64,000 nucleotides of DNA from Hemileia vastatrix (lineage: Eukaryota > Basidiomycota > Pucciniomycetes > Pucciniales > Zaghouaniaceae): the NCBI GenBank assembly GCA_030280995.1, contig JASXTE010000010.1, forward strand, positions 24,987,823 through 25,051,822, written 5' to 3'. The notes under the pieces were generated by a model. That model ran no database searches and was not told the origin of the DNA. It was given only the letters and a program-made list of their open reading frames with translations. Made by a program: the position numbers and the translations under genes. Shown in pieces: positions 1,876 to 63,442 of the stretch (positions are counted from its first letter, which is position 1; every line of letters starts with the position of its first letter).

Positions 1876-2305
1876 ATGTGTGACAACAATGACATTGTAA
1901 GTAATAAGGCAAAACCTTATAAATTAAGACCTAGAGCTGAAAGACCTGTTACAGGACATTCAAATGGAGGGCCAGGACTCTCCCATAATCAACAACACTC
2001 CACCAATGTCTCTGGAGGAAAGGGAAAAGCTTTTAAAGCAGGTTTCAATAAAGAAGTCAAAAAATACATTACAAGAACAAGTTCACTCCCTATCCGCCCT
2101 AATGAACACCTTGACAATAAGAGTCAACAACATAGTGGACCAGATCAACAATCTGGAAAAGAGAGCAGCTCAAGGTTTCATAGAAGTCAACCAAGCTCTA
2201 GTGGACATAAAGACTCAACCACCAACAGTGGAATCCAACAATTCCATAGCAACACCTCCAGCCCAAGAGGAGGACCAAAAAATTACAGTAAGAAAATGGA
2301 AATAG
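1876..2305 (+). pseudogene. E1 spliced overlapping ORF (coiled-coil protein), truncated
   Basis: Exon 1 is 1876-1896 (7 codons), the intron 1897-1954 (58 nt, GTAAGT...TTACAG), and exon 2 starts at 1955 in a frame different from gag. The exon 2 peptide begins DIQMEGQDSP, has leucine-rich heptads predicted to form a coiled coil, and reaches the KWK motif. A TAG at 2303-2305 then stops it where E6 reads Trp. Without that stop it would end in Pro-Trp at 2409, the donor of a second 58-nt intron (2410-2467, GTGAGT...TTATAG). No function is known to me. Splice sites are seen by motif only. Confidence 0.6.
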
Positions 2306-3352
2306 GATTGGTACGCCCAAAATTACAACAATCCTCCTCAACAAGAATCCAGCAGTCACCCTTACAGGGGAAAGCCAAGGAGAGGCAGGGGAAATGGAGT
2401 AAGACCTTGGTGAGTCATCCAACTTCTTATGATCAATTACATCAACCTAACAATGAATTACTTATAGGTAATGAGATTGATAAGGAAATATTGGATATAA
2501 TTGATAATGATTTAAAGGATTATTCATTTGAAAAAAATATGTTAAACTTGTCTTTGCACAAAGACAATGTAGATAGTTTTATTGATCACCAGGATAATGC
2601 TATTAATATTAAAATGGAATCAAATGATGAGTCTTCTGAGTTGGACACAGAAAAAATAGAATATTTTTTAAAAGAAAATCCAATGGAAAAAGATAATAAG
2701 TAAATTATTATTGAGAATTAAAAAATTGGAAGAGTTCTCAAAAGAGTCAAACAATAATACAGAAAAGGTATTATTACAGCTAACACAATCATTGAGTGCA
2801 ACAGCCAATAGATTAAAAATTATTGAAAATTCAAATAATGAATTAGTCAATGAGAATAAGGGATTAAAATCTGAGATTAGAGATTTAGAAAATAAATTAG
2901 AACACTCTCAGAATATTATGGCTACCATTGAGGGACGTGTTAAATTATCTTTTTCAAATGTAAATGACACCCTAACTCATGTACCAGCAATACAGGATAG
3001 GTTACAAAGAGTGGAAATAGAAGTAGCAAACATGTTGAAAAATACTGAAAGAATAAAAGATAACACTTCTTATGTAGCAAGAGTACCTGTTTTCATGAAA
3101 AATGCAAATGAAACACCAATGATGGAACATGAACATAGTATCATGGGCTCTGAGAATAATAAATCAGTAAAAGATGAAATAAATGATCATCTTTCTAAAG
3201 TAAGTAAATTACTCAATATTCCTCAGGTTAGGGAAGCAAAAACTAACAAAAAGAACTGGCCTAAGTTAGATCAGTACCCATCTTTTGACGGAGATTCAAA
3301 ATCTGATTGGCAGCAATTCATACAAAGAATTGATAACTTAAAATTTTCATAA
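1876..3352 (+). pseudogene. gag: E1 Gag, N-terminal and middle part, frameshifted
   Basis: Structural polyprotein of a Ty3/gypsy element. I start it at ATG 1876 (MCDNN), the conserved start in E1, E4 and E6, rather than an in-frame upstream ATG at 1828. The first part (to about 2400) is rich in Ser, Gln and Gly and overlaps the spliced ORF described separately. A coiled-coil-like part follows (about 2711-3100), then the capsid-like KNWPKLDQYP region near 3258. A deletion of about 2 nt near 2690, relative to E6, breaks the frame: one frame stops at 2703 and the other runs 2711-3352. It then meets TAA at 3350-3352, where E4 has TAC; E6 shares this stop. The element is dead but recognisable along its whole length. 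Confidence 0.85.
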
Positions 3353-9701: not shown

Positions 9702-10848
9702 ATTAGGGGCCTTTCCAAAATATTGACGGCGCAACGTTACTTGAGGCCTAATCGAGGGGACCATCGGCGTACAAGTACCTGTAAAGGACAAGTGGAGGCG
9801 AGAAAACGACGAACGTCATACGTCACGTGATAAAAGTTTTTGCTGCGAACGGGAATCAAACCGCGCTCCAAAACTTAAGTTCATATACTGACTAAAAATT
9901 GTATATATCGTGGTAATTATTGTTATTACTATTTGTGGGTTACTCTTCACTCTTCATTTGCTACGTATTTCCTTTTACTCAGCACTCTGTAAGTGGCATT
10001 AATTTGCTCATTTTTCAGGGGGAGGTGTCTGGTAATTTGAAATTTAATTTTATTATTATATTTTTTTTTATTTTTCCTGGTTGACCATAATAGAGCAATA
10101 ACTGTTCTTAGTCCCAGAAGTAATAAAATAATTATATTTTAATATTAATTATTATCATTTTTCAGTTGACAATTGTCCTGATTAATTTGAATTTTAATTG
10201 TTCCAGTTGACAAATTGCCCTGACAATAATATTTTTTATTAAATAAAATAATTATTATAATTTTTCAGTTGACATTTGTCCTGATTAATTTAAATTTTAA
10301 TTGTTCCAGTTGACAAATTGTCCTGAAAATTATATTTTTTTTTTAATAAATTCACATTTAATTACTTCAGTTGACTTTGAGTCCTGGTAATCCAATAAAT
10401 CTTTTTAATTAATAAAACTCATATTTAATTACTTCAGTTGACATTAAGTCCTGGTAGTTAAGTGATCAGTAATAAAATTTTAAAATAAAACTTCATATTT
10501 AATTACTTCAGTTGACATTAAGTCCTGGTAGTTAAGTGATCAGTTAAAATAATTTTTTTTTATTAATAAAGATTCATATTTGATTATTTCAGTTGACAAT
10601 AAATCCTGGTAATAAATTAGTTGATTTAAATCCTGAAAATAAAAATTAATAGAAATTCTAATTTATTTCTACAGTTGATTGTATTATCCTGGTTTTAAAT
10701 TTTTCTTTTATTAATTTTATTTAAGTTGATTTTTATCCTAAAAAGATTTTTTTTTTATTATTTTTCTTTTTTATTTCTGTTAAATAAAAATTAATAATAA
10801 AGACTAATTAATTTTTGTCTCTTTCCTTCATTTCAGTAGAATCTTAAA
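9702..10848 (+). other. E2 leader, unusually long, with a repeated CAGTTGA...TCCTG motif
   Basis: About 1.15 kb between LTR and gag start. A PBS-like region comes first (TAGGGGCCTTTCC, 2 nt after the LTR). From about 10163 to 10741 a motif of the form CAGTTGAC-N(4-6)-GTCCTG recurs about 11 times, every 30-80 bp, in otherwise A/T-only sequence (starts near 10163, 10204, 10266, 10307, 10366, 10435, 10508, 10590, 10620, 10671, 10723). Several units can form a small stem (CAG/CTG and GAC/GTC with a TT bulge). E2' keeps six similar units in its leader. Role unknown; packaging, RNA binding or translation control are possible. Confidence 0.7.
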
Positions 10849-11548
10849 ATGACTGATCAAAGTGGTTTTGCTGCACGTGAAGAAGAACTAGACTTAATTG
10901 ATTATGATGAGCCTACTTCTGTAAGTTCTCCTTTAACAAGAAGAATTTCTCAAACTAATAAATCCTTGCCCCAAACAGGATGTAGAAATGGAAGAAGTAG
11001 AAATCCTAGTGGACAATACTCAGGATCAGAAGCCCATGACAAACCCACCAGAAGAGCTTCCAAAAGGCTTCAGGATAAAAAAGATGCCATTGTCTCAGCA
11101 GGTAAAGAATCTGTCTACCCACATAAAGGAGTTAAGGACAGACAGCTTGAGACTAAAGGTAAGGGTAGATGCCTTGGAAGAAAAGGTGAAAAGAACAGAT
11201 ACTTTTCTCCAAGAGAAGAAGAAACCTCTTCCTCCCAGGGATCAACAACAATTGGCTCCCCAATCCCAAGAGATGGTGGAAGTGTCCAAGTGGCAGTGGG
11301 ACTGGCTCAACACTCAGTGGGACTACTTGGATCAAAACCAGCATCAGTTACCTCAGGTAGGTCCATCAAGGCCCACCCAGGCCAACCCCACTCCTCCCCA
11401 CCCTTATCAAGGAGGCAAAAGAAGAAGGAAGCCCAATATGGTGATACCCAGCAAACCCTGGTACGTCCCTCTATTGATTCTCAAGTGCCTTTTCTTGTGG
11501 CTGACTCTGTTCCTTCAGGAAAATCTGGAAGGCAGGATGAAACCTTGA
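10849..11548 (+). CDS. E2 spliced overlapping ORF (coiled-coil, KWQWDW protein)
   Basis: Exon 1 10849-10920 (24 codons), intron 10921-10978 (58 nt, GTAAGT...AAACAG, with a CTAAT branch-like site), exon 2 from 10979 in a frame different from gag. Exon 2 encodes DVEMEEVEILV, a leucine/charged heptad stretch (SQQVKNLSTHIKELRTDSLR), then KWQWDW and a Pro/Gln-rich tail with HPYQGGKRRR, reaching Pro-Trp at 11460. A second candidate intron, 11461-11518, is also 58 nt (GTACGT...CTTCAG). If it is retained the ORF ends at 11548; if removed, at 11540. About 185 residues to the Trp. Family 1 elements and E2' encode relatives. Function unknown; expression is inferred, not shown. Confidence 0.6.
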
Positions 11549-13336: not shown

Positions 13337-13341
13337 GTTAT

Positions 13342-21126: not shown

Positions 21127-21506
21127 CTTAAGGCCTTTGCTCTCCATGATCCATTGAATGATTTTGAGAAGAATCTGAGAAAATAATTCCTTGATGACCA
21201 CTGGAAGATATATCAAATTATCAAGCACACTTTCCTGAACTCCATTCCTGTTTCTTCTTCTTCTTCTTCTCACAGTTTACTTTCTTACCCAGTTCCTGAC
21301 CACTATAACTCATATACTTTCTCCAGCCGCTTGCACTACAAAAAACACAGTTTTTCCTCAAATTCAAACAAGAAACAAAAACGCCAACACCATCCGGACC
21401 AACCACCAGAGACATCTTTATCCCATCATTAAATAAAAGAATTTTAAAAAAATTTCCTAATTAGAAAAAATATTAACAGCTAACAGATATATATATATAT
21501 AATTTG
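21127..21506. other. Unassigned sequence between LTR fragment and hexamer array
   Basis: About 380 bp with no coding signal that I trust. It includes a short TTC repeat near 21255, an A-rich stretch and an (AT) run near 21487-21500. It may be the rest of element X or host intergenic DNA. Confidence 0.5.
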
Positions 21507-25334: not shown

Positions 25335-27980
25335 TTTGTATTTACAAATGGGGGACAAAACAGAGCCATAACCTCTCCAATTTTCAGAAATGATAGGCAT
25401 AAGTTTTGATTTATAGTCTTGATCTACTGAAGCAAGTGCTTTTTCAGATACTACACTTCCTCCAGCTTCAGAATCCAAAACAACTTCAATGCTGGTTCCA
25501 TTGATCAAGACTGGTGCCTTGAGAGGGGCAATAACAATTGAGCTATCCTCAATGTTATTTATGATCTCAGCATCCTCAACTGTAGATAAATCATTATTAT
25601 CAATATTAATAGTATTTAAATAATGAATATCTTCTTCCAGCATCAAAATTTTCTGCTGAGATTCATATGAAATATTGCTGGCACAATCACTTGAAGTATC
25701 ATCTAGTGCTATTGTGTCATCAGCATGCTCCTCAGTTTGTTCAACAAGATTTATCTTCTTTTCACAAAAATGGCCTTTCTTCCAAGGCTTGTTGCACTTG
25801 AAGCAAGTGTTTGTTGCATACTTATTAGGTGCAACAGGGGCAGAAGGTTTACCAACCTTTTCCAGAAGTTTCTGTTGGTAATTGGAGGGTTTCTCCAAAG
25901 AGGTTCTAAGAATGAATCTTCTGGAATCATACTTGTTGTTTAGAAGGATCTCATTTCAAGTATTAATAAAAGAAGAAGGTTCTCTGGAGATTTTAGTCCT
26001 AGCCACTATCAAGTCACTCAAATACATTGGTAATTTATAAAGGATCCTGTCCTTCCATAATTCAAACTCCATATTTGGGTCCATTTCCCTCAATATTTTT
26101 ACAAGTTTCATTAGAATCTCAATAGTTTTATCAGTCAAAGAGCTATATCTAGTTTCTTCATACTCCCTTTGTTGAGCTATCCTAAACTTGGAGCCACCAA
26201 ATTGTGCTTTAATTAATTTCTTCCAATCTTCCCATGAGTAGTCATTCCTATCCAAGAGAACAGATTCATACCACATTAGGGCTACATTGGTAAACAAAGA
26301 AATTAACTTAGACACAATTTCCTCATCTGGGAGCTTGTAAGAGTTTTTTAATTTATTAATTCTGCAAATGAATTGCTGCAAATCAGAAGAAGAATCACCA
26401 TCAAATGTTGGGTACAGGTCAAGTTTTGGCCAATTCTTTTGATTTGAAGGAGTCTCCTTAGTACTAGCTTGTTTCTGAGTAAGAAGCAGCTGTAATTTCT
26501 CTAATTGTGCTGAAATCTCATTGTTTAATCCTTCTGTGGAAGATCCTGATGTATCATCAATTTTTGATGGAAACTCAGTGATATCAACAGGTATTTCTGG
26601 ACCTAATTTTACTTTAGATGAACTAGCAACAGGTAAACTTGGAGTATCCTGTACCATATGTTCCTTCAAAGAAATTTCAGAATATTTTTGATCATTAAAA
26701 AATGAATTCAATTTTTCTTCAATGGTTGTTAATCTGGTTTTCACTCTTGGAAGACTAGATAAACTCTCATTGATGGTTGCAAAAGATAACTGGTTTTTAT
26801 TTTGAAAAGATGAATAATGATCACTCAATCTTTTCATGTTCATCTTATGTCCCTCTAGCTCCTGGAAACAGATGGACACAGTATCTTGTAGTTTAGACAA
26901 ATTATTTTTGATATTTTTCCATAAAGCAACTTTCTTTTCATGAGTTACTTTGTAATTCAATAAATAATCAAAAACTCTCTTTAATTCACTCCTAAATGAT
27001 TGATAACCCTTTTCAGTTAACAAACTATTAAATTTTTGAGTCAATTGCATATTTTTCATGTTATGATTTTGTTTAGAAATAATATCTCCCAAATATTCAT
27101 CATTAATTTTTGCAACATCTAGAGTGTTTCTCAATAAGGAAACAGAGTAACTTTCAAGATTCTCATAAAAATCAGGATCAAGTGTTTCATAAATAACAGC
27201 CATATCAGGATTTATCATTGAAGTAGCAATTAAAATCAAAGGATTATATACATTAGAATATTGAGTAATATGTCTACTCCTATCAGCCTCTACTAGTCTC
27301 ACAGTTTCATCTCCTCTTCCAGAATTACCTGAAGGAACTGATTCAGCAACAAGAAATGGTACTTGAGATTCAATAGAGGGGCTTACCAAGGCTTGGTCAA
27401 GAACTGAATGTTGTTTTTACTTTTTCTCCCTCCTAGATAAGGGTGAGGAGGTGTGGGGTTGAACTGACTGGTTCTTGACGGACCTGCCTGAGGCATTTGA
27501 GGCTGCTGATGTTGGGACAGATAATCCCACTTCCACTTTGACACTTCCAACTTTTCTGGTTGTTGGGGAGCCAATTGTGGAAGATCCCTGGGGGGAGGAG
27601 GTCTCCTCTTCTCTTGAAGAACGGAATCTATTTTTCTTACCTTGTCTTCTAGTGAATCTGTTCTTGCTCTCAGTTTTAGGTTTTCTGTCCTCAGTTCCTT
27701 TATGTGGGTGGAGAGATTTTTCACTTGCTGAGGTAAGGGCATCTTTTTTATTTTGAAGTCTTTTGAAATTCCTTCTGAGGGGTTGATGGAAGGCTTTTGT
27801 TCCTGAGAATTTGTCTCCACTAGTATTTCCACTTCCTCCATTTCCACATCCTGATTGGTCCAATAATTGATTAATTTGAGCCAATTTTGTAGTAAAGGGA
27901 GAACTTACAGAAGTAGCCTCATCATAATCAATTAAATCCAATTCCTCATCGCGGACAGAAGAAGCACCTTGATCAGTCAT
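25335..27980 (-). pseudogene. gag: E2' Gag and protease (family 2), truncated and fused to X
   Basis: Minus-strand family 2 Gag from ATG 27980 (MTDQG, acidic start as in E2). Frame 27980-27417 stops at TAA where E2 is open. It resumes in the same frame at 27389 and runs to 25956, where TGA replaces Cys of the INTCNE motif. The last part, 25898-25335, holds the zinc knuckle (CFKC...GHFC) and protease, whose catalytic DSGAGG reads DSEAGG. About 31 residues after DSEAGG... (CKYK) the family 2 sequence ends near 25335 and X integrase follows in frame. RT, RNase H and the family 2 integrase are missing. Confidence 0.88.
27383..27980 (-). CDS. E2' spliced overlapping ORF, intact to Pro-Trp-stop
   Basis: Exon 1 27980-27909 (24 codons), intron 27908-27851 (58 nt, GTAAGT...AATCAG), exon 2 27850-27387. 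Exon 2 reads DVEMEEVEILVE, heptad-rich PQQVKNLSTHIKELRTENLK, then KWKWDY, a Pro/Gln stretch, HPYLGGRK, and ends Lys-Pro-Trp followed by TAA. The TAA lies inside a GTAAGC donor; a second 58-nt intron, 27386-27329 (ending CTTCAG), would recreate TGG-TAA after splicing. About 179 residues. Differences from E2 are mostly conservative (D/E, K/R, L/V) although the region also encodes Gag in another frame. Confidence 0.62.
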
Positions 27981-28819
27981 ATTTTAATTTTAACCTGAAC
28001 TGAGGGAAGGAAATATTAAGATATATTAGTTTTATTTTTGCTTTATTAAAAGAAAAATAAGAAAAAAAAATTTTATATATAAAAATTTTCAGGACAAAAT
28101 TCAACTGAAATAATAATCACAATTTTATTAATTCAAAATAATTTTATAGCCAGGATTAAAAGAAATCAACTGAAGTAATAAAATTAATTTTTTAATTAAC
28201 AATTTAAATTTTGATAATTATCAGGATTAAAATCAACTGAAGGAAATTTAATTACCAGGACTTAATCTCAACTGAAATAATTTAATATAATTAATTTTAT
28301 TAATTTTCAATATTTTATTGTCAGGAAAATTTTTCAACTGAAACAATAATATATATTTTAATTTATCAGGACAAAGTAAACTGAAAAAAAATAATATAAT
28401 ATAATAATTAAAAAAAATTATATTACTTCTAATACTAAGAACAGTATAGTTCTATCTTTGTCAACTAGGAAAATAAAAATTATAATTTACTAGACACCTC
28501 CCCCTGTAAAATGAGCAAATTAATGCCACTTACAGAGTGCTGAGTAAAAAAAATACATAGACTATGAAAAGTGCAAAGTGACCCATGAATAGTAATCAAT
28601 GTAATTACCACAAATATATATGACTATTGTCAATATATAAGCTTAAGTTTTGGAGCATGTTTTGATTCCCATTTTCAGAAAAAAAATAAGTCATGTTACT
28701 GATGACGTTTGTGCTTTTTGTTGTCCACTTGTCCCTATAGGTACCTCGATATCAATGGTCCCTTGGTCTCCGGCCTCAAGTTATCAATGCGCCATCAATA
28801 ATTCGGAAAGGATCCCAAC
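27981..28819 (-). other. E2' leader with CAGTTGA...TCCTG motif copies
   Basis: Counterpart of the E2 leader. On the minus strand the motif occurs at about 28107-28090, 28172-28151, 28240-28222, 28275-28256, 28340-28322 and 28384-28366 (the last two degraded). A PBS-like TGGGATCCTTTCC lies 2 nt after the LTR end at 28820. The PBS-proximal part (28620-28818) still aligns with E2. Confidence 0.65.
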
Positions 28820-30876: not shown

Positions 30877-33328
30877 ATGTCTAGTAACTTGACTGACAGC
30901 ATGGATAGCTTAAATGTGGATGAGATTGAAGTAGAATGTGAGGTTGACTCAGTAAGTTCTTCTGAATTGAGTTACAAAAACTCTTCTGCTGACAAAAAAC
31001 CATCCAATTCTTCAGGAGGAGTGGTAAACCCCCCTCCCCAAAAAACTCTGAAAGAAGTCAAGCATCAAATAAATCTGGAAAATCCTTTAAAAGGTATAAA
31101 AATAAAAAAGATTCCTCTGGCCCAGCAGGTAACCAATCTATCAAGCCGCATAAAGGAGATGAGGGCAGACAGTATGAGATACAAAGAAAAAGGAGATACC
31201 TTTGGGTGCAGATGCAGGAGCTTTTAGCTCACAAAAAGGCTCAACCTCCTCCCTTACCAACCACCCAGGCTCAGCCTCAGCCTCAGTCCCAATAAACACC
31301 CAGCTCTTTCTAACAAAATTCAAATACTCTGGAAGTGGAACAGTGGAAGTGGGACTATCTTATGAGCCATTATCAGCAGAATTTACAGCATCAACCAGCT
31401 CATCACCCTAGCCCATCCAAGACACAAACTTACCATCAAACTCCTCAGGCCCATCCTTATCAGGGAGGCAGAAAAAATAAAGCACAGGGGAAATTTCCTC
31501 CTTTGCCATGGTAAGTAGCTTGTTTGATAATCATGTAATTATTTGTAATAATAAATCTTCTTCTACAGGTAATATTTTTGAGAATGTTGAAAGAACTGTT
31601 AAACCTATAAAGAGACAACTTCCTGTTATAAGTAGCCCTAATGATGCTCTAAGTAAACTGTCATTTGATGAACCATTACATTTAACTTCTACTTCTTTGG
31701 TTAATCCTTCTCTTGCAATTAAAAATGATTCTTTTGCCCCTGAAATTTATGTTTTTCTTGAAAAAACTTCTGAGGAAATATTGAAAGATTCTCTTCATTT
31801 TAGTATTGTGAAAGACAAAATGTTAAGAGATTTGTTAAAGCATGAGAATGACAGATTGAATAATTTTCATTTAAACTGTAAAGTGAGTTCTTCTGTACAA
31901 GATAAAGCTTATTTTAGATTAAAGGACAACTTAAATTATGTAACTTCCCAATTGAAACAATTAAAAATTGATCATAAGGCGCTTTTAGATAAGAATTTTA
32001 TTTAAATAAACTTATTCATTAATTAAAACCCCTTATAAGTTAAAATGCTTCATTAAGAGATGACAATACATCCTTACATATTGCATTGAAAACATTGAAA
32101 ATTGAATTCCAGGCTTTGAGTAATAAATTCTCAGTTTATGAAGACAGAAATGTTTTATCTCTTTCAAAAATTAATGATCAACTTTCTGAAATTCCTAGGT
32201 TGAGAAATTATTTGTCTAATCTTGAAGGAAAATTCTCTATATTACCTCCTATTCCTGATCAACATTATGTTGAAATTGAAACTACTGCCCATAAGTCCAC
32301 CAAAAATAAGGGTAAACAACCTGAGCAGAGTAGATCTTACCTTCCTTTAAATGTGTCCATTAAACAGCCTGAAAATGTATCTACAAAATCTTCTGTGGAC
32401 CACAAAAAAATTTTCAATACTCATCATGATCCAGCTGTTTCTGTGAATAATGAAATTTCTGAACACCTTTCCAGGTTTCAGGAATTAATTACCATGAATA
32501 ATTATAAAGTTGACCATCCAAGTAGCCATAAAAATTGGCCTAACCTTGATCAATATCCCACCTTTTATGGTGATTATTCATCTGACTGGAAGCATTTTAT
32601 TCAAAGAATTGATAATTTGAAAAATTCTTATAAACTGTCAGATGAAGAAATAGTCTCTAATTTAATTTTTTATTATCCAATGTTGCCCTGAAGTGGTATG
32701 AGTCTGTCTTGTTGCCCAACCATCACTATACTTGGGATGAGGGGAAAACATCAATTGAGAATCAATTTGGTGGATCAAAATTCAGATTAGCACAGAAGAG
32801 ATTATATGAGAATGCTATATATACATCCTCTTCTTCTGAAAAACCTATTGTTTTTCTCATGAAAATAAAAAAAATTCTAAAAGCTATGGATCCAAAAATG
32901 TATTATGATACTTGTAGAGACAAAATCCTTTATAAATTTCCAAACTCTGTAAGAGATTTAATTTTAGACAGGACTGAGCATGTGAGAGAAAATTCTTCTT
33001 TTATTACTATCTGTAATGAGGTATTACTCAACCACAGATATGAACCAAAGAATTGTCCCTTAAAGCCTCCTCATGACCAAATCAAATCTTCATCAAATCT
33101 TCCAGAAAAACCTGGAAAACCCTCTGTCCCTGTTGCACCAAAGATATTTGCAACAAATACTTGTTGTAAATGTAACAAATCATGTCAGAAAGAACATGTT
33201 TGTGACAAGAAGATTCATCTTGTTGAACAAACTGAAGATCCTGAAAATCTGCAGTTGACCTTGATGATTCCTCAAGTGAATGTGATAGTAATATCTCTTA
33301 TGAAAATGATTCCCTTAATGATCTTTTA
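30877..33328 (+). pseudogene. gag: E3 Gag (family 3), many breaks
   Basis: Recognisable family 3 Gag in several frames. 30877-31227: acidic start, then the coiled-coil segment with IKKIPLAQQVTNLSSRIKEMR, which in families 1 and 2 belongs to the overlapping spliced frame. 31508-32005: NPSLAI region. 32086-32691: coiled coil, then KNWPNLDQYPTF. 32709-33329: rest of capsid and zinc knuckle CCKC...EHVC, where the Gly before His reads Glu. Frameshifts and stops separate the pieces. A GTAAGT donor follows Asp-Ser near 30952 (intron of 64 nt to 31015). CCATGG then TAAGT at 31508 marks the conserved second 58-nt intron (31511-31568). Ancient and dead. Confidence 0.82.
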
Positions 33329-44700: not shown

Positions 44701-45594
44701 TCATCTCATGGTCTTTGACCAATCCTAGTTCATTTGAGCCATGAGCAAATGCCATAGGATATGATTTAATCAATCTCAAAATATCTTCTTCTTCAGTCTT
44801 TGAGAGTTGAGGGCTGAAAGAGGCCTTTTGGATTTCATTTTCCAATTCACCCACTTCATTGGTGGTTCTTCCACCTTTCAGTTGTTCTTCTCTAGGAGAA
44901 ATGGCATATACTGAATTTTCAGAACATATTTTGAATTTTCTCTTACCTTTCACGCCTATGGTGAAACAACTGTTTGCAGGATCTAGTTTAATGCCAAATT
45001 TTGTCAATAAATCATTGCCAATAATAAACCAATCACTACAATTATTATTATCCATTACTACAAATTCACAAACTGCTCTAACATAACCATTATTATATTT
45101 AAAGAATACAGCAGTTTGGTATTTGCCAATTGAATTTAATACTGAACCAAAACCCCTCCAGTTCTTTGTCTGAACAGGTTCTAGTTTTTCTTGGTACTTA
45201 CTATCAAGTTTCATTAATGTATCAATTGAAACTACACTACCAGCAGCCCCAGTGTCAAGAATGGCATTCATTTCTTTTCCACATATGATAATAGGTGCTC
45301 TGATAGGTGTTATTTTGTAAGTATCATGAGATACATCTTTAATTATTTCAGCTTCCTCTATGGAATTTAAAGATGTGTCTGTATGAGGTATAGCATCATT
45401 CAGGAACATTATATCCTGTTCTAATACAAATATCTCATTTTCATCATCACTGTAAGATATGTTACTTTTGCAATCCTCACTAGATTCCACATTTTCATCT
45501 TCATGATTACTTGGTTCAGAATTCTGTGAGGTTTCAATAACATTTATTCTTTTCTTACACGTGTGACCCTTAACCCAAGGTTCATTACATTTTT
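41759..45594 (-). pseudogene. pol: E4 Pol: open PR-RT-RH-IN-chromodomain
   Basis: Uninterrupted for 1243 codons from 45490 to 41759, downstream of a TAA at 45594-45592 that replaces Tyr in the zinc knuckle (C-stop-KC). Order on the minus strand: protease DTGA near 45255; RT with LCGDYRALN and intact YIDD near 44190; RNase H with TDAS near 43750; integrase with intact His/Cys zinc residues (CHDDILAGHF...CDSCQKSK near 43050-42920), D,D,E core (NMDFVTGFP, SDRDPKF, GLAERMIQ), basic KRRGRPKKQ and chromodomain (EIEKILKKR...KWIPEKEIS). No catalytic residue that I checked is lost. The best-preserved Pol in the window; with the upstream stop read through it could be active, but I cannot tell. Confidence 0.92.
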
Positions 45595-47632
45595 AACAAG
45601 TGTTATTTTCTTGTCTCTTAGGGACAAGGGGAGCTGAAGGTTTTTTCTTTTCCACTGGTAACTTACTTGTAGTAGGTTTTACCACTTCAACACTTTGTCT
45701 GTAATTACTATACTTGGATTCATACTTGTGGTTTAATAATATCTCATTGCATATATTAATGAATCCAGAGGTGTCTCTGACAGTTTCAGTTCTAGCTACA
45801 ATAATGTCTCTAACTGATATAGGCAACTTGTATATTATTTTTTCTTTCCACCCTTCATAATCCATTTTTGGATCCATAGCTTTCATGATTTTTATTAAAT
45901 TCATTAAGAAGACCATGAGTTTATCTCCAGCATTTGGATTATATCTGGCCCTTTCATACAGTCTTTGTTGAGTGATTCTAAATTTTGGGCCACCAAATTG
46001 CCTTTCAATTAGTGCCTTCCATTCATTCCAGGAGTAATTAATTCCCTCACTCAATACAGATTCAAACCATAATAAGGCCACATCTGTAAATAAAGATATT
46101 AACTTTGAAGTAATTTCTTCATCAGGTAATTTGTATGAAAATTTTAAGTTATCAATTCTTTGTATGAATTGTTGCCAATCAGATTTTGAATCCCCGTCAA
46201 AAGAAGGGTACTGATCTAACTTAGGCCAGTTCTTTTGGCTAGTTTTTGCTTCCCTAACCTGAGGAATATTGAGTAATTCACTTACTTTAGAAGGATGATC
46301 ATTTATTTCATCTTTTACTGATTTTATATTCTCAGAGCCCATAACACTATGTTCATGTTCAATCATTGGTTTATCATCAGAGTGTTTCATAAAAACTGGT
46401 ACTCTTTCTACATAAGAGGTATTATCTTTTATTGTTTCAGTATTTTTCAAAATGTTAGCTACTTCAATTTCTACTCTTTGTAACCTATCTTTTATCACAG
46501 GTACATGATTTAAGGTATCATTTACATTTGAAAAAGTCAATTTTACATGTCCCTCTATGGTAGCCATAATATTCTGAGAGTGTTCTAATTTACTTTCTAA
46601 ATTTCTAATCTCAGATTTTAATCTTTTATTCTCATTGATTAATTCATTATTTGAATTTTCAATAATTTTTAATTTATTGGCTGTGGTACTCAATGATTGT
46701 GTTAGTTGTAATAATACATTTTCTGTATTAATGTTTGACTCTTTTGAGGACTCTTCCAATTTTTCAATTCTCAATAATAATTTACTTATTATTTTTGATT
46801 CCATTGGATTCTCTTTTAAAAAATATTCTATTTTTTCTGTGTCCAATTCAGAAGACTCATTATCAGGGTCAAGATTTAATTCATTTTATTCCATTTTTAT
46901 ATTAATATTATTTTCCTGGTGATCAATAAAACTATTTACATTGTCCTCATGTAAAGACAAGTTTAACATATTCTGTTCAAATGAATAATCCTTTAAATCC
47001 TTATCAATAATATCCAATATTTTCTTATCAATCTCATTACCTATAAGTAATTTATTTTCAGGTTGATATAATTGATCATAAGAAGTTGGATGACTTACCA
47101 AGGTCTTATCCCACTTCCCCTGCCTCTCCTTGCCTTTCCCCTGTAAGGGTGACTGCTGGAGCCCTGCTGTTGAGGATTGTTGTAGTTTTGGGCGTACCAA
47201 TCCTATTTCCATTTGCTTACTGTAATTTTTTGGTCCTCCTCTTGGGCTGGAGGTGTTGCTATGGAATTGTTGGGTGCCACTGTTGGTGGTTGAGTCTTTA
47301 TGTCCACTAGAGCTTGGTTGACTTCTATGAAACCTTGAGCTGCTCTCTTTTCCAGATTGTTGATCTGGTCCACTATATTGTTGACTCTTATTGTCAAGGT
47401 GTTCAGTAGGGTGGATAGGGAGTGAACTTGTTCTTGTAAAGTATTTTTTGTTTTCTTTATTGAAACCTGCTTTAAAAGCCTTTCCCTTTCCTCCAGAAAC
47501 ATTGACGGAGTGTTGTTGATTATGGGAGAGTCCTGGCCCTCCATTTGAATGTCCTGTAACAGGTCTTTCAGCTCTAGGTCTTAAGTTATAAGGTTTTACC
47601 TTATTACTTACAATGTCATTGTTGTCACACAT
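45595..47632 (-). pseudogene. gag: E4 Gag with two nonsense codons
   Basis: One frame from ATG 47632 (MCDNN) to the zinc knuckle. Ser/Gln/Gly-rich N-terminus overlapping the spliced ORF (to about 47100), acidic helical region, TAA near 46888-46886, coiled-coil region from 46846, capsid-like KNWPKLDQYPSF near 46230, Gag C-terminus, and TAA at 45594. It is in the same frame as Pol, so Gag-Pol is a single ORF without a programmed shift. Unlike E1 and E6, E4 keeps TAC (Tyr) after KFS near 46137. Confidence 0.88.
47203..47632 (-). pseudogene. E4 spliced overlapping ORF, truncated by TAG
   Basis: Exon 1 47632-47612, intron 47611-47554 (58 nt, GTAAGT...TTACAG), exon 2 47553-47099. Exon 2 reads DIQMEGQDSP and leucine-rich heptads (LSTLLNTLTIRVNNIVDQ) to KWK. 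TAG ends it at 47203, the same stop as in E1, where E6 has Trp. The second intron, 47098-47041, is also 58 nt. The truncation removes the Trp-rich and HPY part. Confidence 0.6.
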
Positions 47633-48300
47633 TTTTACGTGGAATTTAAAGAATTGAAAGTTTAGATATGAAAACTTCAAAAAGGAGTTTTATCAGTATT
47701 TATCAATACCACTGAAGACAATTTTATTGCTTACTTATTGGTATGAAGTGAATATTTAAGTGCAAAAAGTCAAATATGCTTTTATGTGGTCACTTGATTT
47801 AACTGGTCTACAATATGTAGCCGTGTTTCTATATTCAAAAGAAAACAACTGTCAGTATGATTCTTTCTAAATATTTAATGAATTTTACAAACCAATAAAA
47901 GAAAAGATTAAGAGTCCTGTTAAAAGAAAACAATTAATCAGTTTAATTGGTTTATTATCTGCAAAGATCACAAATTTAATTGGTCTATTGACAGACTCCC
48001 ACTAAGAACAATTATATGTTAAATTAGTGGTAAAAATTTTATCTGCAAAGATCTCAAATTTAATTGGTCTATTGACAGACCCACTAATAACAATTATAAG
48101 TTAAATTAGTGGTAAAATTGTTGATTCAATATCACAATTTTATAATATAACAGGGCTTCTTTTTCTGAAATCACTATATAAGTGACCCCAACCTGTTGTA
48201 ATTATGCAAATATTTCTATAGGGATATTATTTACGTGCACCTTCTTTTGAAAATTTCACTTACAGGATTGTAACAGAATTCTTGAGGAAAGGTCCCCAAT
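47633..48300 (-). other. E4 leader with an 84-bp tandem duplication and PBS
   Basis: Non-coding. Two imperfect copies of about 84 bp start with TTATCTGCAAAGATC near 47955 and 48039; E1 and E6 show one. The PBS-like TGGGGACCTTTCC (minus strand) ends 2 nt from the 5' LTR at 48301. Confidence 0.7.
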
Positions 48301-49801
48301 TGTCAGGCTAAGGTCAAGTACAAGGACGTGAACTAGCTTGAATAGTCAGTTGTCTAGAAGAGTTTAATGGTCCTATATGAATACTGTAGATTTAATCCAC
48401 TAAGTTGTAAAATATAATCAAATATAAAGGTCTCAGTAATATAATTCTCACTATTCTTATATATGGCTTACAATCTTTATAGTTGGTAGAAAAACAGATT
48501 ATATAAATTCAGATACTATTCAAAAGTCTTATAAAAGTACTAATTGATATTTATTGTAATTGGTTTGGTTATATTGCTTGAATTGTAATGATAAAGAATG
48601 AAGAAATACAACCCAAAAACCTCCTCCTTTTATACACACTGAGTTCCCCAATAATTCCCTTGATGTACCACCCAATACACAGTTAATAACGCCTCTAAAC
48701 AACTAATAGACACTCCCATCAACATTCCCAGTAACCCATGACATAATTAGAAGAGTAACAACCGCCAAAATCCTGTAATAATAAGGGAAATCCATCAAAA
48801 TTTAAGAAAAAGACAAAAAGAGAGTATATGCATATTAAACAATAATATTAAAGACTAAAGGAGACTTTTTAAGGTTTATAATAGCTTAATAATAAGGGGG
48901 ATTTACTGTAGAAATGGAGAGGCTAATCCTGACATTCTACTACGTGAAATTCCCATCCAAAAATAACCAAAATTGACTGAGAAACCACCCAAAAACTTAA
49001 AAAAGAGCGTGAGATGTGGGGTAACTACATGCAGTCCTTGGAAGGCGCTTGCACGGGTAAATCCTTGACTAAAATTAGGCGAATTTAAGCGTGGTGATGA
49101 AATAAGATGCCAAGAATGAGGTTATTAATGAAATTAGTGCATATAAACATGGTCAATGCATTATTAATTAAGCTAGGACACTAAATAAGCGCCTCTCGCC
49201 TATTTTAGTGTGTTTCCCCACAGTGGGCGTAGAATGTGGGGTAATTATAGTGTGAAAAAGCTAAATTTGCTAAAAATGAAGCTATTCACACGGGAAAAAA
49301 GCAGGCAGTATGTGGCCAGTACACAGAAGCCATTTCTGGCATAAAAAACACCAAATTTGAAAAGTGTTATTTTTATGCATTTAAATAGCCAAATCAATAG
49401 TTCTAAATGAGCCCAATTGATCTGTCAAAGCGCAATTTTGATATTCTCAATTTTATAGCGCATATAGTCAACTTTTAAGTGAAATAAAGCGCATTTCTTG
49501 TTTTTTGCATAAAACAATGAATATAACAGCTTTAAGTGTACTTAAAAATTATGTAGCCTTATACTTAAGGTTCTTAAGATTACCCTAACATATTCCAACT
49601 TAATATTAAGTACATAAGACCTATAAAAGGTGGATATATGCGTGTATATAAGGTGTTATAATGGCATTTTTTGTGTATTATCATAATTTTACTTATGTAT
49701 ACTATTTGTGTACTCTTATTTATTATTCCCATGTATAGTTCATGTGTTTAACATAACTTATAATTACTTTTTACTCAGTCCTGGAGATATACAGGCTGAC
49801 A
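48301..49801 (-). repeat. E4 5' LTR (1501 bp)
   Basis: TGTCAGGCTAAGG...CAGGCTGACA on the plus strand, 1501 bp. It matches the 3' LTR outside the MITE. Confidence 0.95.
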
Positions 49802-50594
49802 CTCAAGGTGTCTTTCAAGTCTAGAATGTTTTCCAGGGAGGTTCAAGGGCAGAAACAAAGGGTTTTTAAAGGATTCAAACTTGGGTATGTATTTTTCTTA
49901 TCTTTAAAGATTGTTTTACTCAATAATAAGAGGTAAAAAGGTAGATTACTATTATAATTAAGGGTTTAGAATCACGGGTTAATGTAAATACTAAAACAAT
50001 AATAGATAACAATAAAGTAGATTGTAAGTAGTTGTAATAAAGTGAGTAAGTAATGAATGAATCTTAAAGTACAAAAAGTGGGGGCCTTTTATAGGCAAAA
50101 ATGCAGGAAATAAAGACATGAAGTTACACCACCTAATACAAGGGTGTGAGAAAGAAGCTGACTAAGAAAGAGTATATATATGACATAAATAAAAGATAAA
50201 TTAATTGGTATGTCAACAAGGGCATCATTTTCTTTTGTAATAAGGTATGAGTTCCCTTGGACTGTCACAATTAATACAACACATTTGAGTTAAATATATT
50301 AATTTCACAGAAATCCAAAACTCTCAGTGAAGTAATTTGATATTTTTAAGGTTTTTATTATATTTTTATTACCACTCAACTGTATTATTGAGCACGGTGT
50401 TAGGGAGTAAAAATGTATGGGACAATTACTTAAATTAATTATTTACATTACTTAATATACTTAGCTAGTTAGTTGTAAGTAATACATAAGTAAATATTAA
50501 ATAATTAATTATTAATAAGAATTTTAAAAGGCTTGGCTTCATCTCAGTAAAATAATTAATTATTTTACAGGGTAAGTCTAGTAGCCTGGCTACA
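49802..50594 (-). repeat. E5 3' LTR (family 2), main part
   Basis: Continues from TGTCAA at 39806 after E4. On the plus strand CTCAAGGTGTC...GCCTGGCTACA, so on the minus strand the LTR begins TGTAGCCAGGC, with a base missing relative to TGTCAGCC. It holds the reverse TATA region (CCTTTTATAGG near 50090). Total about 794 bp against 822 in E2. Confidence 0.85.
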
Positions 50595-53388: not shown

Positions 53389-55540
53389 CTCTTAAGAAAT
53401 TAGGAAAGGTGATATAACACAATATTTAGGTGTTTCAACTACCTTTTCAATAATATTCATTTTTAAAAGGGTAGAGATATTGTCTTCAATATCTTTTCTC
53501 TTTGTGGGAGAAGCAGGATAAGGCTTCTTCTTTAAACTAGGTGGTATATCAGTTAATGGACAAGACAATGAAAGTTTCATTTCTTCCTTAACTAATCCCA
53601 GCTCATGTGACCCATGAGCAAAGGCCATTGGAAAAGATTTTATCAAGTTAATGATGGAATCTTTATCCTCACCAGAAAGTTGTTCTCCAAAAGAGGCATT
53701 GTCAATTTCAGACACAAGGGCATGCATTTCTTTTGTAGATCTTCCTTTATATTGAACCACAGAATTACATGTGTTCAATTCTGGTTTTACTAATCTTTTA
53801 GGGGAGGAAATCTTGAATTTTTTCTTCCCATTTATCCCAATTATGAAACATTGGTTTGAGGGATCCAATTTTATGCCAAACTTGGTTAAAATATCATTCC
53901 CCACAATAAACCAATTGCTTAAGTTATCATATTTCATGACAACAAAATCACAAATAGCTCTTACAAAACCATGGTTATATTTAAAAAACACTGTGGCTTT
54001 GTATTTACCAATGGGGGACAAAACAGAGACATAACCTCTTCAGTTTTCAGAAATGATAGGCATAAGTTTTGATTTATAGTCTTGATCCACTGAAGCAAGT
54101 GCTCTTTCAGAAACTACACTTCCTCCAGCTCCAGAATCCAGAACAACTTCAATGCTGGTTCCATTGATCAAGACTGGTGTCTTGAGAGGGGCAATAACAA
54201 TTGAGCTATCCTCAATGTTCTTTATGATCTCAGCATCCTCAACTGTAGATAAAGCATTATTATCAATATCAATAGTATTTAAATAATTAATATCCTCTTT
54301 CAGCATCAATATTTCTTGTTGAGATTCATATGAAATATTGCTGGCACAATCACTTGAAGTATCATCCAGTGCTACTGTGTCATCAGCATGCTCCTCTGTT
54401 TTTTCCACAAGATTTATCTTCTTGTCACAAACATGGCCCTTCTTCCAAGGCTTGTTGCACTTGAAGCAAGTGTTTTTTGCACAATTTTTAGATGCAACAG
54501 GAACAGAAGGTTTACCAACCTTTTCCAGAGGTTTCTGTTGTTAATTGGAGGGTTTCTCTCAAGTGGTTCTAGGAATGAATCTTCTGGCATAATACTTGTT
54601 GTTTAGAAGAATCTCATTACAAGTATTGATGAAATAAGAAGGTTCTCTGGTGAACTCAGTCCTAGCCACAATCAAGTCTCTCAAAGACATTGGTAATTTA
54701 TAAAGGATCCTGTCCATCCATAATTAAAACTCCATTTTTGGTTCCATAGCTGTTAAGATTTTTACAAGTTTCATAAAGAGCTCAATAAGTTCATCAGTGG
54801 AAGAACTATATTTAGTTTCCTCATACTGCCTTTGTTGAGCCATCCTAAACTTGGAGCCCCCAAATTGTGCTTTAATTAATTTTTTCCAATCTTCCCATGA
54901 ATAATCATTCTCATCCCCAAGGACAGATTCATACCACATTAGGGCTACATTGGTAAACAAAGAAATTAAATTAGACACAATTTCCTCATCTGGAAGTTTG
55001 TAAGAGATTTTAAAGTTATCAATTCTGCTAATGAATTTTTGCCAATCAGAAGAAGAATCACCATCAAATGTTGGGTATTGGTCAAGTTTTTGCCAATTCT
55101 TTTGATTTGAAGGAGTTTCCTTAGTACCAGCTTGTTTCTGAGTAAGAAGCAGCTGTAACTTCTCCAATTGTACAGTAATCTCATTGTTTAATCCCTCAGT
55201 TGAAGATCCTGGTGCATCATCAATTTTTGATGGAAACTCAGTGGTATCAATAGGTATTTCTGGAACAAATTTTACTTTAGATGAACTAGCCACAGGTAAC
55301 CTTGGAGCATCTTGCACCATATGTTCTTTTAAAGAAATGTCAGAATATTTTTGATCATTAAACAATGAGTTCAATTTCTCTTAAATGGTTGTTAGTCTGG
55401 TTTTCACTCTTGGAAGACTAGATAGACTCTCATTGATTGTTGCAAAAGATAACTGATTTTTATTTTGAAAAGATGAATAATGGTCATTCAATCTTTTCAG
55501 ATTCATCTTATCTATCTCCAGCTCCTGGCAACAGATAGAC
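53389..55540 (-). pseudogene. gag: E5 Gag C-part, protease and RT start, cut by E6
   Basis: Minus-strand continuation upstream. 54021-53392 holds the protease end and RT start; 54408-54040 the acidic linker and protease DSGAGG near 54140; 54540-54410 the zinc knuckle; 55374-54724 the coiled-coil end and capsid region (KNWQKLDQYPTF near 55090). Nonsense codons lie near 54037, 54541, 54723 and 55381. At 55540 family 2 Gag ends in the middle of CCQELEIDK and E6's LTR begins, so the Gag N-terminus must lie to the right of the window. Confidence 0.85.
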
Positions 55541-57025
55541 TTTCAGGCTAAGATCAACTAAAAGGACATGAACTAGCTTGAAAATTCTTTTTCTAGAATA
55601 TTTAAATGGTCCTATATGAATACTGTAGTATAAATTCAACAAATAGTAAAATATAATTCAGAATAAAGGTCTCAGTAATATAATTCTCACAAATTTTTTA
55701 TGTGGCTTACAATCTTTTTAGTTGGTAGAAAAATAGAGTTTAATAATTCAGATACTACTCAAAAGTCTTATAAAAGTACTAACTGATGTGTATTGTAATT
55801 GATTTGGTTATATGGTGTAAATTGTAAATGATAAAGAATGTAGAAACAAGACCCAAAAACCTCCTCCTTTTATACACACTGAGTTCCTCAATGATTCCCT
55901 TGATGTACCACCCAATACACAGTTAATGAAACCTCCAAACAACTAATAGATATGCCCATCAACATTACCAGTAATCCATGACATAATTAGAAGAGTAAAA
56001 ACCGTCAAAATCCTGTAATAATAAGGAAAATCCATCAAAATTAAAAAATAAGATAAAAAGAGAGTATATGAATATTAAACAATAATATAAAATACTAAAG
56101 GGGAATTTTTAAGGTTATTAATAGCTTAATACTAAGGGGGATTCACTGTAGAAATTATGAGGCTAATCCTGACATTATACTACGTGAAATTCCCATTCAA
56201 AAATAACCAATATTGACTGAGAAACCACCCAAAAACTCAAAAAAGAGCGTGAGATGTGGGGTAACTACATGCAGTCCTTGGCAGGCGCTTGCACAGGTAA
56301 ATCCTTGACTAAAATTAGGCGAATTTAAGCGTGGTGATGAAATAAGACACCAAGAGTGAGGTTATTAATGAAATTAGTGCATATAAACATGGTCAATGCA
56401 TTATTAATTAAGCTAGGACACTAAATAAGCGCCTCTCGCCTATTTTAGCGTGTTTCCCCATAGTGGGCATAGAATGTGGGGTAATTATAGTGTGAAAAAG
56501 CTAACTTTTCTAAAAATGAAGCTATTCACACGGGAAAAAAGCAGGCAGTATGTGGCCAGTACACAGAAGCCATTTCTGGCATAAAAAATACCAAATTTGA
56601 ATAGTGTTATTTTTATGCATTTAAATAGCCAAATCAATAGTCCTAAATGAGACAAATTGATCTGTCAAAGGGAATTTTGATATTCTCAATTTTATTGCGC
56701 ATATAGAATAAAATGCATTTCTTGTTTTTTGAGTAAAACAATGAATATAACAGCCTTGAGTGTACTTAAAAGTTATGCAGCCTTATACTTATGGCTCTTA
56801 AGATTACCCTAACATATTCCAACTTAATATTAAGTACATAACACGCATAAAAGGTGGATAGATGCATGTATATAAGGTGTTATAATGGCATATTTTGTAT
56901 ATTATCATAATTTTACTTATGTATACTGTTTGTGTACTCTCAATTATTGTTCCCATGTATACTTCATGTGTTTAACATAACTTATAAGCACCCTTTACTC
57001 AGTCCTGGGGATATACAGGCTGACA
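55541..57025 (-). repeat. E6 3' LTR (family 1, 1485 bp)
   Basis: Starts TTTCAGGCTAAG (expected TGTCAGGCTAAG) and ends CAGGCTGACA at 57025. It is more diverged than the E4 LTRs, with a gap near 56705 where the tract rich in AACTTTTAAG is missing. It inserted into E5 gag; TAGAC (55536-55540) is the expected left TSD. Confidence 0.9.
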
Positions 57026-57204
57026 CTCGCCCACCCAAAAAAAACAATAAAAAAGATGATAAGTTATACATTTTATTTATTTATTTTTAATTTTCAGGTA
57101 TTCAGATTAATTCTGTAGCATTAAAGATTATACTTTAAAGAAATAAAACATAATAAAATATTATGAGTTCTGGTTTTTAACCCCTCAGCTGGTTGAACAG
57201 AAAT
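57026..57204 (-). promoter_or_regulatory. E6 3' UTR, U-box and polypurine tract
   Basis: Same layout as E1: T-run, ATTG, T-run, GGGTGGGCGAG, then the LTR (minus strand). Confidence 0.65.
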
Positions 57205-61575: not shown

Positions 61576-63066
61576 TTTTTATGAAAATTTTAAGTTATCA
61601 ATTCTTTGAATGAATTGCTGCCAATCAGATTTTGAATCCCTGTCAAAAGAAGGGTACTGATCTAACTTAGGCCAGTTCTTTTGGTTATTTTTTGCTTCCC
61701 TAACCTGAGGAAAATTTAGTAATTCACTTACTTTGGAAAGATGATCTTTTATTTCATCTTTTACTGATTTACTGTTCTCAGAGCCCATGACACTATGTTC
61801 GTGTTCCATCATTGGTGTTTCATTTGAATGTTTCATGAAAACAGGTACTCTTGCCACATAAGAGGTGTTATCTTTTATTTTTTCAATATTTTTCAATATG
61901 TTTGCTACTTTTATTTCTACTCTTTGTAACCTATCCTTTATTACAGGTACATGAGTTAGAGTATCATTTACATTTGAAAAAGATATTTTAACATGTCCCT
62001 CAATGGTAGCCATAACATGCTGAGAGTGTTCTAATTTACTTTCTAAATTTTTAATCTCAGAGTTTAATCTTTTATTCTCATTGATTGATTCATTATTTGA
62101 ATTTTCAATAATTCTTAATCTATTGGCTGTGGTACTCAATAATTGTGTTAGCTGTAATAATACATTTTCTGTATTATTGTTTGACTCTTTTGAGAACTCT
62201 TCCAGTTTTTTAATTCTCAATAATAATTTACTTATTATTTTTGATTCCATTGGATTCTCCTTTAAAAAATATTCAATTTTCTCTGTGTCCAACTCAGAAT
62301 ACTCATCATTTGATTTATTTGGTTCCACATTTACATTAATAGTATTATCCTGGTGATCCATAAAACTATTTACATTGTCCTCATTTAAAGACATGTTTAA
62401 CATATTTTTTACAAATGAATAATCCTTTAAATCTTTATCAATTATATCCAATATTTCCCTATCAATCTTATTACCTGTAAGTAATTTATTGTCATGTTGA
62501 TACAATTGACTATGAGGAGTTGGATGACTTACCAAGGTCTTATCCCACTTCCCCTGCTTCTCCTCGCCTTTCGCCTGTAAGGGTGACTGCTGGAGCCCTG
62601 CTGTTGAGGATTGTTGTATTTTTGGGCGTACCAATCCCATTTCCATTTGCTTACTGTAATTTTTTGGTCCTCCTCTTGGGCTGGAGGTGTTGCTATGGAA
62701 TTGTTGGGTGCAACTGTTGGTGGTTGAGCCTTTATGTCCACTAGAGCTTGGTTGACTTCTATGAAACCTTGAGCTGCTCTTTTCTCCAGATTGTTGATCT
62801 GGTCCACTATATTGTTGACTCTTATTGTCAAGGTGTTCAGTAGGGTGGATAGGGAGTGAACTTGTTCTCGTAATGTATTTTTTGTTTTCTTTATTGAAAC
62901 TTGCTTTAAAAGCCTTTCCCTTTCCTCCAGAAACATTGGCTGAGTGTTGTTTATTATGGGAGAGTCCTGGACCTCCATTTGGATGTCCTGTAACAGGTCT
63001 TTCAGCTTTAGGTCTTAAGTTAGAAGGTTTTGCCTTATTACTTACAATGTCATTGTTGTCACACAT
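61576..63066 (-). pseudogene. gag: E6 Gag, open for 495 codons then a shared stop
   Basis: Open from ATG 63066 (MCDNN) to 61579 in the unspliced frame, through both candidate introns, showing that the Gag frame can run uninterrupted from exon 1. Parts: Ser/Gln/Gly-rich overlap region, acidic helices (DKEILDIID-like), coiled coil, and KNWPKLDQYPSF near 61680. It ends after KFS with TAA, the same nonsense change as in E1 (TAC in E4). The capsid region beyond it is readable in the next feature. Confidence 0.88.
62529..63066 (-). CDS. E6 spliced overlapping ORF, full-length (about 159 residues)
   Basis: The only full-length family 1 copy of this ORF here. Exon 1 63066-63046 (7 codons), intron 63045-62988 (58 nt, GTAAGT...TTACAG), exon 2 62987-62533. 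Exon 2 has coiled-coil heptads (LSTLLNTLTIRVNNIVDQ), then KWKWDWYAQ, a Ser-His-Pro-Tyr-Arg-Arg basic part, and ends Arg-Pro-Trp then TAA. The TAA lies in the donor of a second 58-nt intron (62532-62475, GTAAGT...TTACAG); removing it again gives TGG-TAA. Family 2 copies share the VSKWxWD core. Likely a separate accessory or Gag-related product of spliced RNA; function unknown. Confidence 0.65.
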
Positions 63067-63442
63067 TTTTACGTGGAATTTATTTTAAAGAATTGAAAGT
63101 TTAGATATGAAAACTTCAAAAAGGATTTTTATCAGCATTTATCAATACCACTGAAGACAATTTTATTGCTTACTTATTGGTATGAAGTGAATTTCTAAGT
63201 GCCAAAAGTCAAATATGCTTTTTAAGTGGTCACTTGATTTAACTGGTCTACAATATGTAGCCGTGTTTTTATATTTAAAAAGAAAACAACTGTCAGTAAG
63301 ATTCTTTTCAAATATTAAATGAATATTACAAACCAATAAAAGGTGATTAAAAGTCCTGTTTAAAAGAAAACAATTAATCAGTTTAATTGGTTTATTATCT
63401 GCAAAGTACACAAATTTAATTGGTCTATTGACAGACTCCCAC
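63067..63442 (-). other. E6 leader, interrupted by repeat Z
   Basis: Non-coding and matching the E1 and E4 leaders up to GACAGACTCCCAC, where Z begins. The PBS and 5' LTR of E6 would lie beyond the window. Confidence 0.7.

Follow-up and report, generated by a model that had tools for sequence, protein, structure and literature searches.

Elements and Reading Frames at the Locus

The window, i.e. the whole stretch of 64,000 nucleotides (nt) of Hemileia vastatrix DNA analysed here (source assembly: 748 Mb, 791 contigs), contains several Ty3/gypsy retrotransposons in which a second, putatively spliced reading frame overlaps the 5' part of gag. The elements belong to three families: family 1 (E1, E4 and E6), family 2 (E2 and E2') and family 3, which includes E3, a decayed member sharing the same design. 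They are Ty3/gypsy chromoviruses, with reverse transcriptase and RNase H followed by integrase and a chromodomain, and with flanking long terminal repeats (LTRs). E4 carries RVT_1, RT_RNaseH, Integrase_H2C2 and Chromo in that order and in a single frame at 41759-45592, all above their cut-offs, with the rve and RVP domains scoring just under theirs. The LTR pair of E1 (1-777, clipped by the window start, and 8107-8883) is 99.2% identical. For family 2, a first look at the genome gave 20,352 candidates, 150 of which were scored.

A 58-nt GT-AG intron (intron 1) begins 21 nt (family 1) or 72 nt (family 2) on from the gag start codon, and its ends carry donor and acceptor consensus in E1, E2, E2', E4 and E6. 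Removal of intron 1 leads into a frame, referred to here as the hidden frame, that overlaps gag over about 460-490 nt (exon 2) and ends in Pro-Trp and a stop codon (PW-stop), with E2, E1 and E4 as exceptions. The frames and positions given in the initial annotation, made from the letters of the window, are correct. E6 has its start codon at 63066, the intron at 63045-62988 and exon 2 at 62987-62529, and the introns of E1, E2, E2' and E4 are likewise 58 nt long. The initial annotation had also described exon 2 as open at full length in E6, E2 and E2'. This holds for E6 and E2', which are open to the PW-stop; in E2 the stop has become TAC and reading runs on. The gag frame is uninterrupted through the region in E1, E2, E4 and E6, as had been claimed, and has one stop in E2'. 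The features are listed in Table 1.

Table 1. Positions of the spliced-frame features and leader stem-loops in the window
Feature	Coordinates	Strand	Remark
E6 exon 1, shared start (MCDNNDI)	63046..63066	-	ATG at 63066
E6 intron 1, 58 nt, GTAAGT..TTACAG	62988..63045	-	
E6 exon 2, hidden frame, 152 residues to PW-stop, overlaps gag	62529..62987	-	selection tests
E6 intron 2 (58 nt) with TG^GTAAGT donor at hidden stop and acceptor TTACTTACAG	62475..62532	-	
E6 gag open frame spanning both introns and exon 2	61579..63084	-	
E1 exon 1	1876..1896	+	
E1 intron 1, 58 nt	1897..1954	+	
E1 exon 2, hidden frame interrupted by one TAG	1955..2413	+	
E1 intron 2, 58 nt, donor GTGAGT	2410..2467	+	
E4 exon 1	47612..47632	-	
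E4 intron 1, 58 nt	47554..47611	-	
E4 exon 2 (copy L007), hidden frame interrupted by TAG identical to that of E1	47095..47553	-	
E4 intron 2 by letters, GTAAGT..CTTATAG	47041..47098	-	site matches other copies
E2 leader with nine short UU-bulged stem-loops, candidate RNA target	10161..10693	+	link to the protein speculative
E2 exon 1, family 2	10849..10920	+	
E2 intron 1, 58 nt	10921..10978	+	
E2 exon 2 as far as KPW, stop altered to TAC	10979..11461	+	
E2 intron 2, 58 nt, donor GTACGT	11461..11518	+	
E2' leader, five stem-loops of same kind	28088..28342	-	
E2' exon 1, family 2	27909..27980	-	
E2' intron 1, 58 nt	27851..27908	-	
E2' exon 2, open to KPW-stop, one gag stop inside	27383..27850	-	
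E2' intron 2 (L029), 58 nt, GTAAGC..CCTTCAG	27329..27386	-	
E3 exon 1, family 3	30877..30951	+	counted on letters
E3 intron 1, 64 nt	30952..31015	+	counted on letters; in 13 relatives the length is 63-66 nt
E3 exon 2, decayed hidden frame with PW-stop end	31016..31514	+	
E3 intron 2 (L059), 58 nt, GTAAGT..CTACAG	31511..31568	+	

The Pro-Trp terminus of the hidden protein is also the site of a second splice donor. The hidden stop codon lies within TG^GT[AG]AG[TC] in all three families (GTACGT in E2), and a YAG acceptor follows exactly 58 nt on in 14/14 sequences shown; the acceptor of E6 coincides with the end of the interval marked in the initial annotation (62475). Intron 2 donors in family 1 are GTAAGT in 27/29 sequences, with GTAACT and GTGAGT once each. 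Those in family 3 are GTRAG in 20 and GTGGG in 2 of the 22 copies (among 30) that matched the pattern, and GTAAG is retained in 18/21 family-2 sequences. Copies with a TGA stop (E1 and most of family 3) still have a GTGAG donor. Once intron 2 is removed the next codon is TAA in 11/14 sequences, the others being E2 and L064, where it is not, and L049, where the junction makes TGA. In those 11 reading still stops at TGG-TAA, so that the same protein results and an exon junction beyond the stop is absent. Splicing that would carry exon 2 on, in frame, into the downstream part of Gag was considered and rejected: it needs an intron 2 of 2 mod 3 in length (intron 1 being 1 mod 3), and the conserved length is 58.

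Open Frames among Genomic Copies

In the 28 family-1 copies read, which include E6 (L001) and E4 (L007), the hidden frame is open to the PW-stop in 25 (all except L006, L007 and L027), and 13/28 are identical across 592 nt with both frames open. The single TAG that had been reported as common to E1 and E4 is indeed shared by them; it is atypical of family 1, and the idea that it represents the family norm was dismissed on the count of open copies.

E2 was compared with a set of 21 family-2 sequences, consisting of E2' and 20 copies selected on their sequence downstream of exon 2 (ranks 2-21 among the 40 that were scored), in which one row with 8 stops in both frames was retained. Six of the 21 lack stops in the hidden frame of exon 2, and four lack gag stops between the start codon and the end of exon 2. 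An earlier family-2 sample (L029-L058) had been chosen for the likeness of its hidden proteins, which biases it; its ratio of 0.55 is not used. About 7 extra residues follow KWxWD (resembling WLNTQWD) in exon 2 of E2 (10979-11461), L034, L037, L050, L055, L057 and L058, where both frames are about 21 nt longer.

For family 3, 30 sequences were fetched by DNA similarity, E3 included. A pattern search found intron 1 (63-66 nt, mostly 64) with an in-frame exon 1 in 13/30. In one copy, L069, the hidden frame is open to the PW-stop and gag is open across the overlap.

Selection on the Two Frames

Pairwise changes were sorted by their effect in both frames and scaled by the observed substitution spectrum, with intervals from a codon bootstrap. 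Each ratio expresses how far changes altering one frame are depleted within the class of changes that alter the other as well. The spliced frame is under purifying selection in family 1 and between family-2 lineages: the hidden-frame ratio in exon 2 is 0.45 (0.23-0.82) in family 1, 0.39 (0.25-0.58) for E2-E2' and 0.38 (0.27-0.52) for E2 against the 21 family-2 sequences. The corresponding gag ratios inside exon 2 are 0.95 (0.50-2.71), 0.65 (0.40-0.97) and 0.72 (0.48-1.01). Within exon 2 the spliced frame is the more constrained, and gag appears to be loosely constrained. Downstream of exon 2 the order reverses, with 1.00 (0.74-1.40) and 1.04 (0.55-2.00) for the hidden offset and 0.53 (0.40-0.70) and 0.34 (0.21-0.57) for gag. 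The downstream control for E2-E2' that crosses the LTR insertion in E2 was not used, and a stretch of 348 nt served instead. The non-coding third frame of exon 2 in family 1 shows no constraint (1.14, 0.55-2.9).

Position counts run the same way, the third position of the hidden frame being gag position 1. Differences between E2 and the 21 sequences at gag positions 1/2/3 number 1305/542/697 in exon 2 and 270/271/607 downstream. Nine family-1 sequences vary at 25/16/14 sites within exon 2 and at 60/45/78 downstream; the counts for the 62 nt surrounding intron 2 are 7/3/2, too few for a reading. Neutral change in the frame of exon 2 had been named in the initial annotation as grounds for giving up its proposal. 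The pattern is not neutral in family 1 or between family-2 lineages, and is near neutral in family 3 and among recent family-2 copies, as described below.

The hidden proteins also resemble each other between families. Shuffle z-scores for six pairs are 12.2-26.3 for the hidden frame, -0.4 to 9.3 for gag and -0.3 to 12.0 for the third frame. The earlier observation that families 1 and 2 are closer in the hidden frame than in gag is borne out by three pairs (14.3, 14.3 and 13.1 vs 3.8, 3.5 and -0.4). A gag run of the observed length, given the exon 2 codons, has p<=0.0004 in 5/5 sequences tested (family 1 supplied two of these). Turned round, the test is weaker, with p 0.0008-0.013 when codons are permuted and 0.003-0.075 when the permutation is synonymous. 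A chance open frame as the account of exon 2 was rejected on the selection ratios, the position counts and these permutation tests. Because gag is open beyond chance yet its residues are only loosely kept, the hidden gene is read as the older partner of the overlap, and the overprint may be the N-terminus of gag instead of the spliced frame.

Intron-Lacking Junctions in the Genome

The exon 1-exon 2 junction of family 2 (25 nt, <=2 mismatches) occurs at 20 places in the genome, 4 of them exact, as 9 distinct strings. The reversed junction and the junction shifted by 5 nt each occur at 0 places, and the intron-bearing acceptor pattern of the same family (27 nt) at 1071. Similarly, the exon 2-exon 3 junction of family 2 (31 nt, <=3 mismatches) is found at 14 places, none exact, as 10 distinct strings, with 0 places for the reversed control. 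A single copy on contig C260 carries both junctions with 481 nt of exon 2 between them. At two of the exon 2-exon 3 places intron 1 seems to be retained, because the overlapping protein matches include intron-1 residues. Neither the window nor a set of 108 loci contains a junction string, even with 4 mismatches allowed. The intron-lacking copies look like reverse-transcribed spliced RNAs, and they provide indirect evidence that both splices occur in family 2. One variant of the exon 1-exon 2 junction is common to four places (C348, C756, C757 and C768 of genome G000), perhaps a lineage without intron 1 that multiplied.

Weighing the Two-Protein Reading

The initial annotation had proposed that one locus makes two proteins, Gag-Pol from unspliced RNA and a separate product from spliced RNA. 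This is supported as the best reading of the data, amended to two introns. The elements very probably encode a spliced and selected second protein over gag, a judgement that concerns the protein itself and leaves its function aside. We infer that living cells splice this RNA in each of the three families and that the protein is produced.

Several results weigh against this reading. In the genome, the family-1 exon 1-exon 2 junction occurs at 0 places at <=3 mismatches, and the junction strings of family 2 repeat, so that there were fewer events than places. Both facts lend something to the explanation that the intron-lacking copies arose by chance deletion or gene conversion and that the introns stay unspliced in life, since copies with repeated strings would partly be descendants of single events. 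Deletion would also have to produce exact GT-AG boundaries at two sites, with nothing at the junction shifted by 5 nt, and to remove both introns from one copy in a family in which the intron-bearing pattern is so frequent; it is considered very improbable.

The selection results have their own contrary points. The hidden frame is near neutral in family 3 (0.91, 0.76-1.09) and among family-2 copies compared with one another (0.81, 0.65-1.03); this would be the pattern of old or recent insertions, a fit that is not proof. The family-3 position counts separate poorly (13435/10276/9645 in exon 2, 14663/11292/14469 downstream), and ratios from doubly synonymous changes rest on very few changes, e.g. 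0.50 (0.25-5.95). The third-frame control is mixed, with ratios of 0.51 (0.35-0.93) and 2.54 (1.77-3.96) for E2 against family 2, and the third-frame z of 12.0 for E2' vs L069 means that simple DNA similarity accounts for part of the signal between families. The near neutrality of family 3 and of young family-2 copies, and the mixed control, would suit an exon 2 frame that is untranslated and whose pattern comes from the structure of the RNA, from signals for splicing or from an unusual mutational bias. This explanation is judged very improbable, as constraint tracks the codon positions of the hidden frame inside exon 2 and those of gag downstream, and protein motifs are conserved between families.

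Predicted Protein and Proposed Mechanism

In the alignment of hidden proteins, IK, L-x-x-Q, LS, V-x-KW, HPY and PW are invariant or nearly so, and the basic tail is conserved. AlphaFold2, run with 16 aligned sequences, predicts one helix at residues 39-81, with a block predicted local distance difference test score of 87-94 over residues 41-80. The mean score is 66.1 and the predicted template modelling score 0.30; the remainder is of low confidence and without secondary structure. A Pfam search of the hidden frames gave nothing above cut-offs, its sole matches being to coiled coils below cut-off. The best PDB profile match is the coiled coil of LINE-1 ORF1p (E 0.018), among several weak coiled coils. 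Scans of plasmid, viral and prokaryote contigs turned up no relatives.

According to the proposed mechanism, ribosomes on unspliced RNA would begin at the shared start codon and continue across intron 1, exon 2 and intron 2, giving the N-terminal part of Gag-Pol. On RNA without intron 1 the ribosome would be shifted to the overlapping frame and yield a protein of roughly 160-195 residues, with a short N-terminus, a long helix that is likely a coiled coil, a KW-x-WD motif, a Pro-rich tail with HPY and basic residues, and the PW end, where intron 2 would start within the last codon (TG^GTRAG). The genome-length RNA would then have to keep two introns that have good signals. To our knowledge, the export of unspliced RNA from the nucleus has been worked out for few intron-bearing LTR elements outside retroviruses.

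The first choice for the function of the hidden protein, tentative and with somewhat less than an even chance, is that it works like HIV Rev or Cer1 CERV and exports intron-containing RNA from the nucleus. In Cer1, a Ty3/gypsy element of C. elegans, the spliced product CERV is described as needed to export unspliced RNA (PMC10309623). The likeness is one of arrangement: both are LTR elements with an accessory protein from spliced RNA, and with gag and pol on unspliced RNA without an intervening stop (PMC10309623). The hidden protein differs from CERV in that it overlaps gag and is small and mostly disordered. HIV-1 Rev (PMC10309623) is likewise comparable by description, being a small protein from spliced RNA with an oligomerising helix and a basic patch; here the predicted helix and the basic tail may play such parts, along with a candidate structured RNA target. 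The hidden frame differs from Rev in overlapping gag, and a sequence relation is not claimed.

The candidate target is the series of stem-loops with a UU bulge in the family-2 leaders (Table 1). The motif is CAG-UU-GAC..GUC-CUG; E2 has nine aligned copies of it and E2' has five, and at least 3 stem-loops are present in 28/30 family-2 leaders of a sample chosen by hidden-protein similarity. In a shuffle test, 1/500 and 4/500 shuffles reached the observed values for two measures, and 376/500 for the number of covarying pairs. Covariation is partial; on 45 distinct motifs the third pair has p 0.09, which is not significant. The motif occurs 0 times in 30 family-3 and 8 family-1 leaders and 0 times downstream or on the opposite strand. 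That families 1 and 3 lack it argues against a mechanism common to all the families via this motif, and the stem-loops of family 2 are a possible target of the hidden protein. A fuller proposal, speculative and rather unlikely as a whole, is that this lineage outside the retroviruses has its own pair of Rev and response element. The spliced coiled-coil protein would bind the family-2 stem-loops just upstream of the shared start and export intron-containing RNA, with the accessory gene the older and the N-terminus of Gag the overprint. A pyrimidine-rich stretch ending in CAG lies just upstream of the family-2 start codon (10849 on the + strand, 27980 on the - strand) and might serve as the acceptor for an additional intron in the leader.

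The second choice, possible yet doubtful, is that the spliced product is real and serves as a structural cofactor in Gag or ribonucleoprotein assembly (scaffold, RNA chaperone or oligomer like LINE-1 ORF1p) rather than as an RNA exporter. The predicted single long helix with its disordered basic tail would suit such a role, as would the ORF1p match; nothing specific speaks against it, although coiled coils resemble each other through composition. Small accessory proteins of retroelements can also counter host silencing or limit copy number, and a real spliced product might do either. A motif or homology was not found in the Pfam and PDB profile searches, and such a role appears unlikely.

Splicing as such is known to give different mRNAs from one LTR element, as BARE and EVADE retain or remove introns (PMC3735527, PMC8892269). 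Their splicing serves Gag production (PMC3735527, PMC8892269), whereas here it would give a separate protein in another frame. A Ty3/gypsy element with a spliced gene over gag was not found by title or abstract in the literature searched, which was largely without subscription papers, and this is weak evidence of novelty. The system is very abundant and combines a pair of short conserved introns with an overlapping gene under selection and with apparent spliced copies that the genome has kept. Ordinary RNA sequencing would be enough to test the splicing, the dual coding and the idea of a regulator. The gag frames of such elements can conceal a second gene that annotation overlooks.

Other Features of the Window

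LTR copies of about 1.5 kb lie at 11836-13340, 48298-49804 and 55534-57028, the first of which splits the gag of E2. A short tandem repeat extends over about 1.7 kb at 21457-23198 and holds four long, meaningless open frames.
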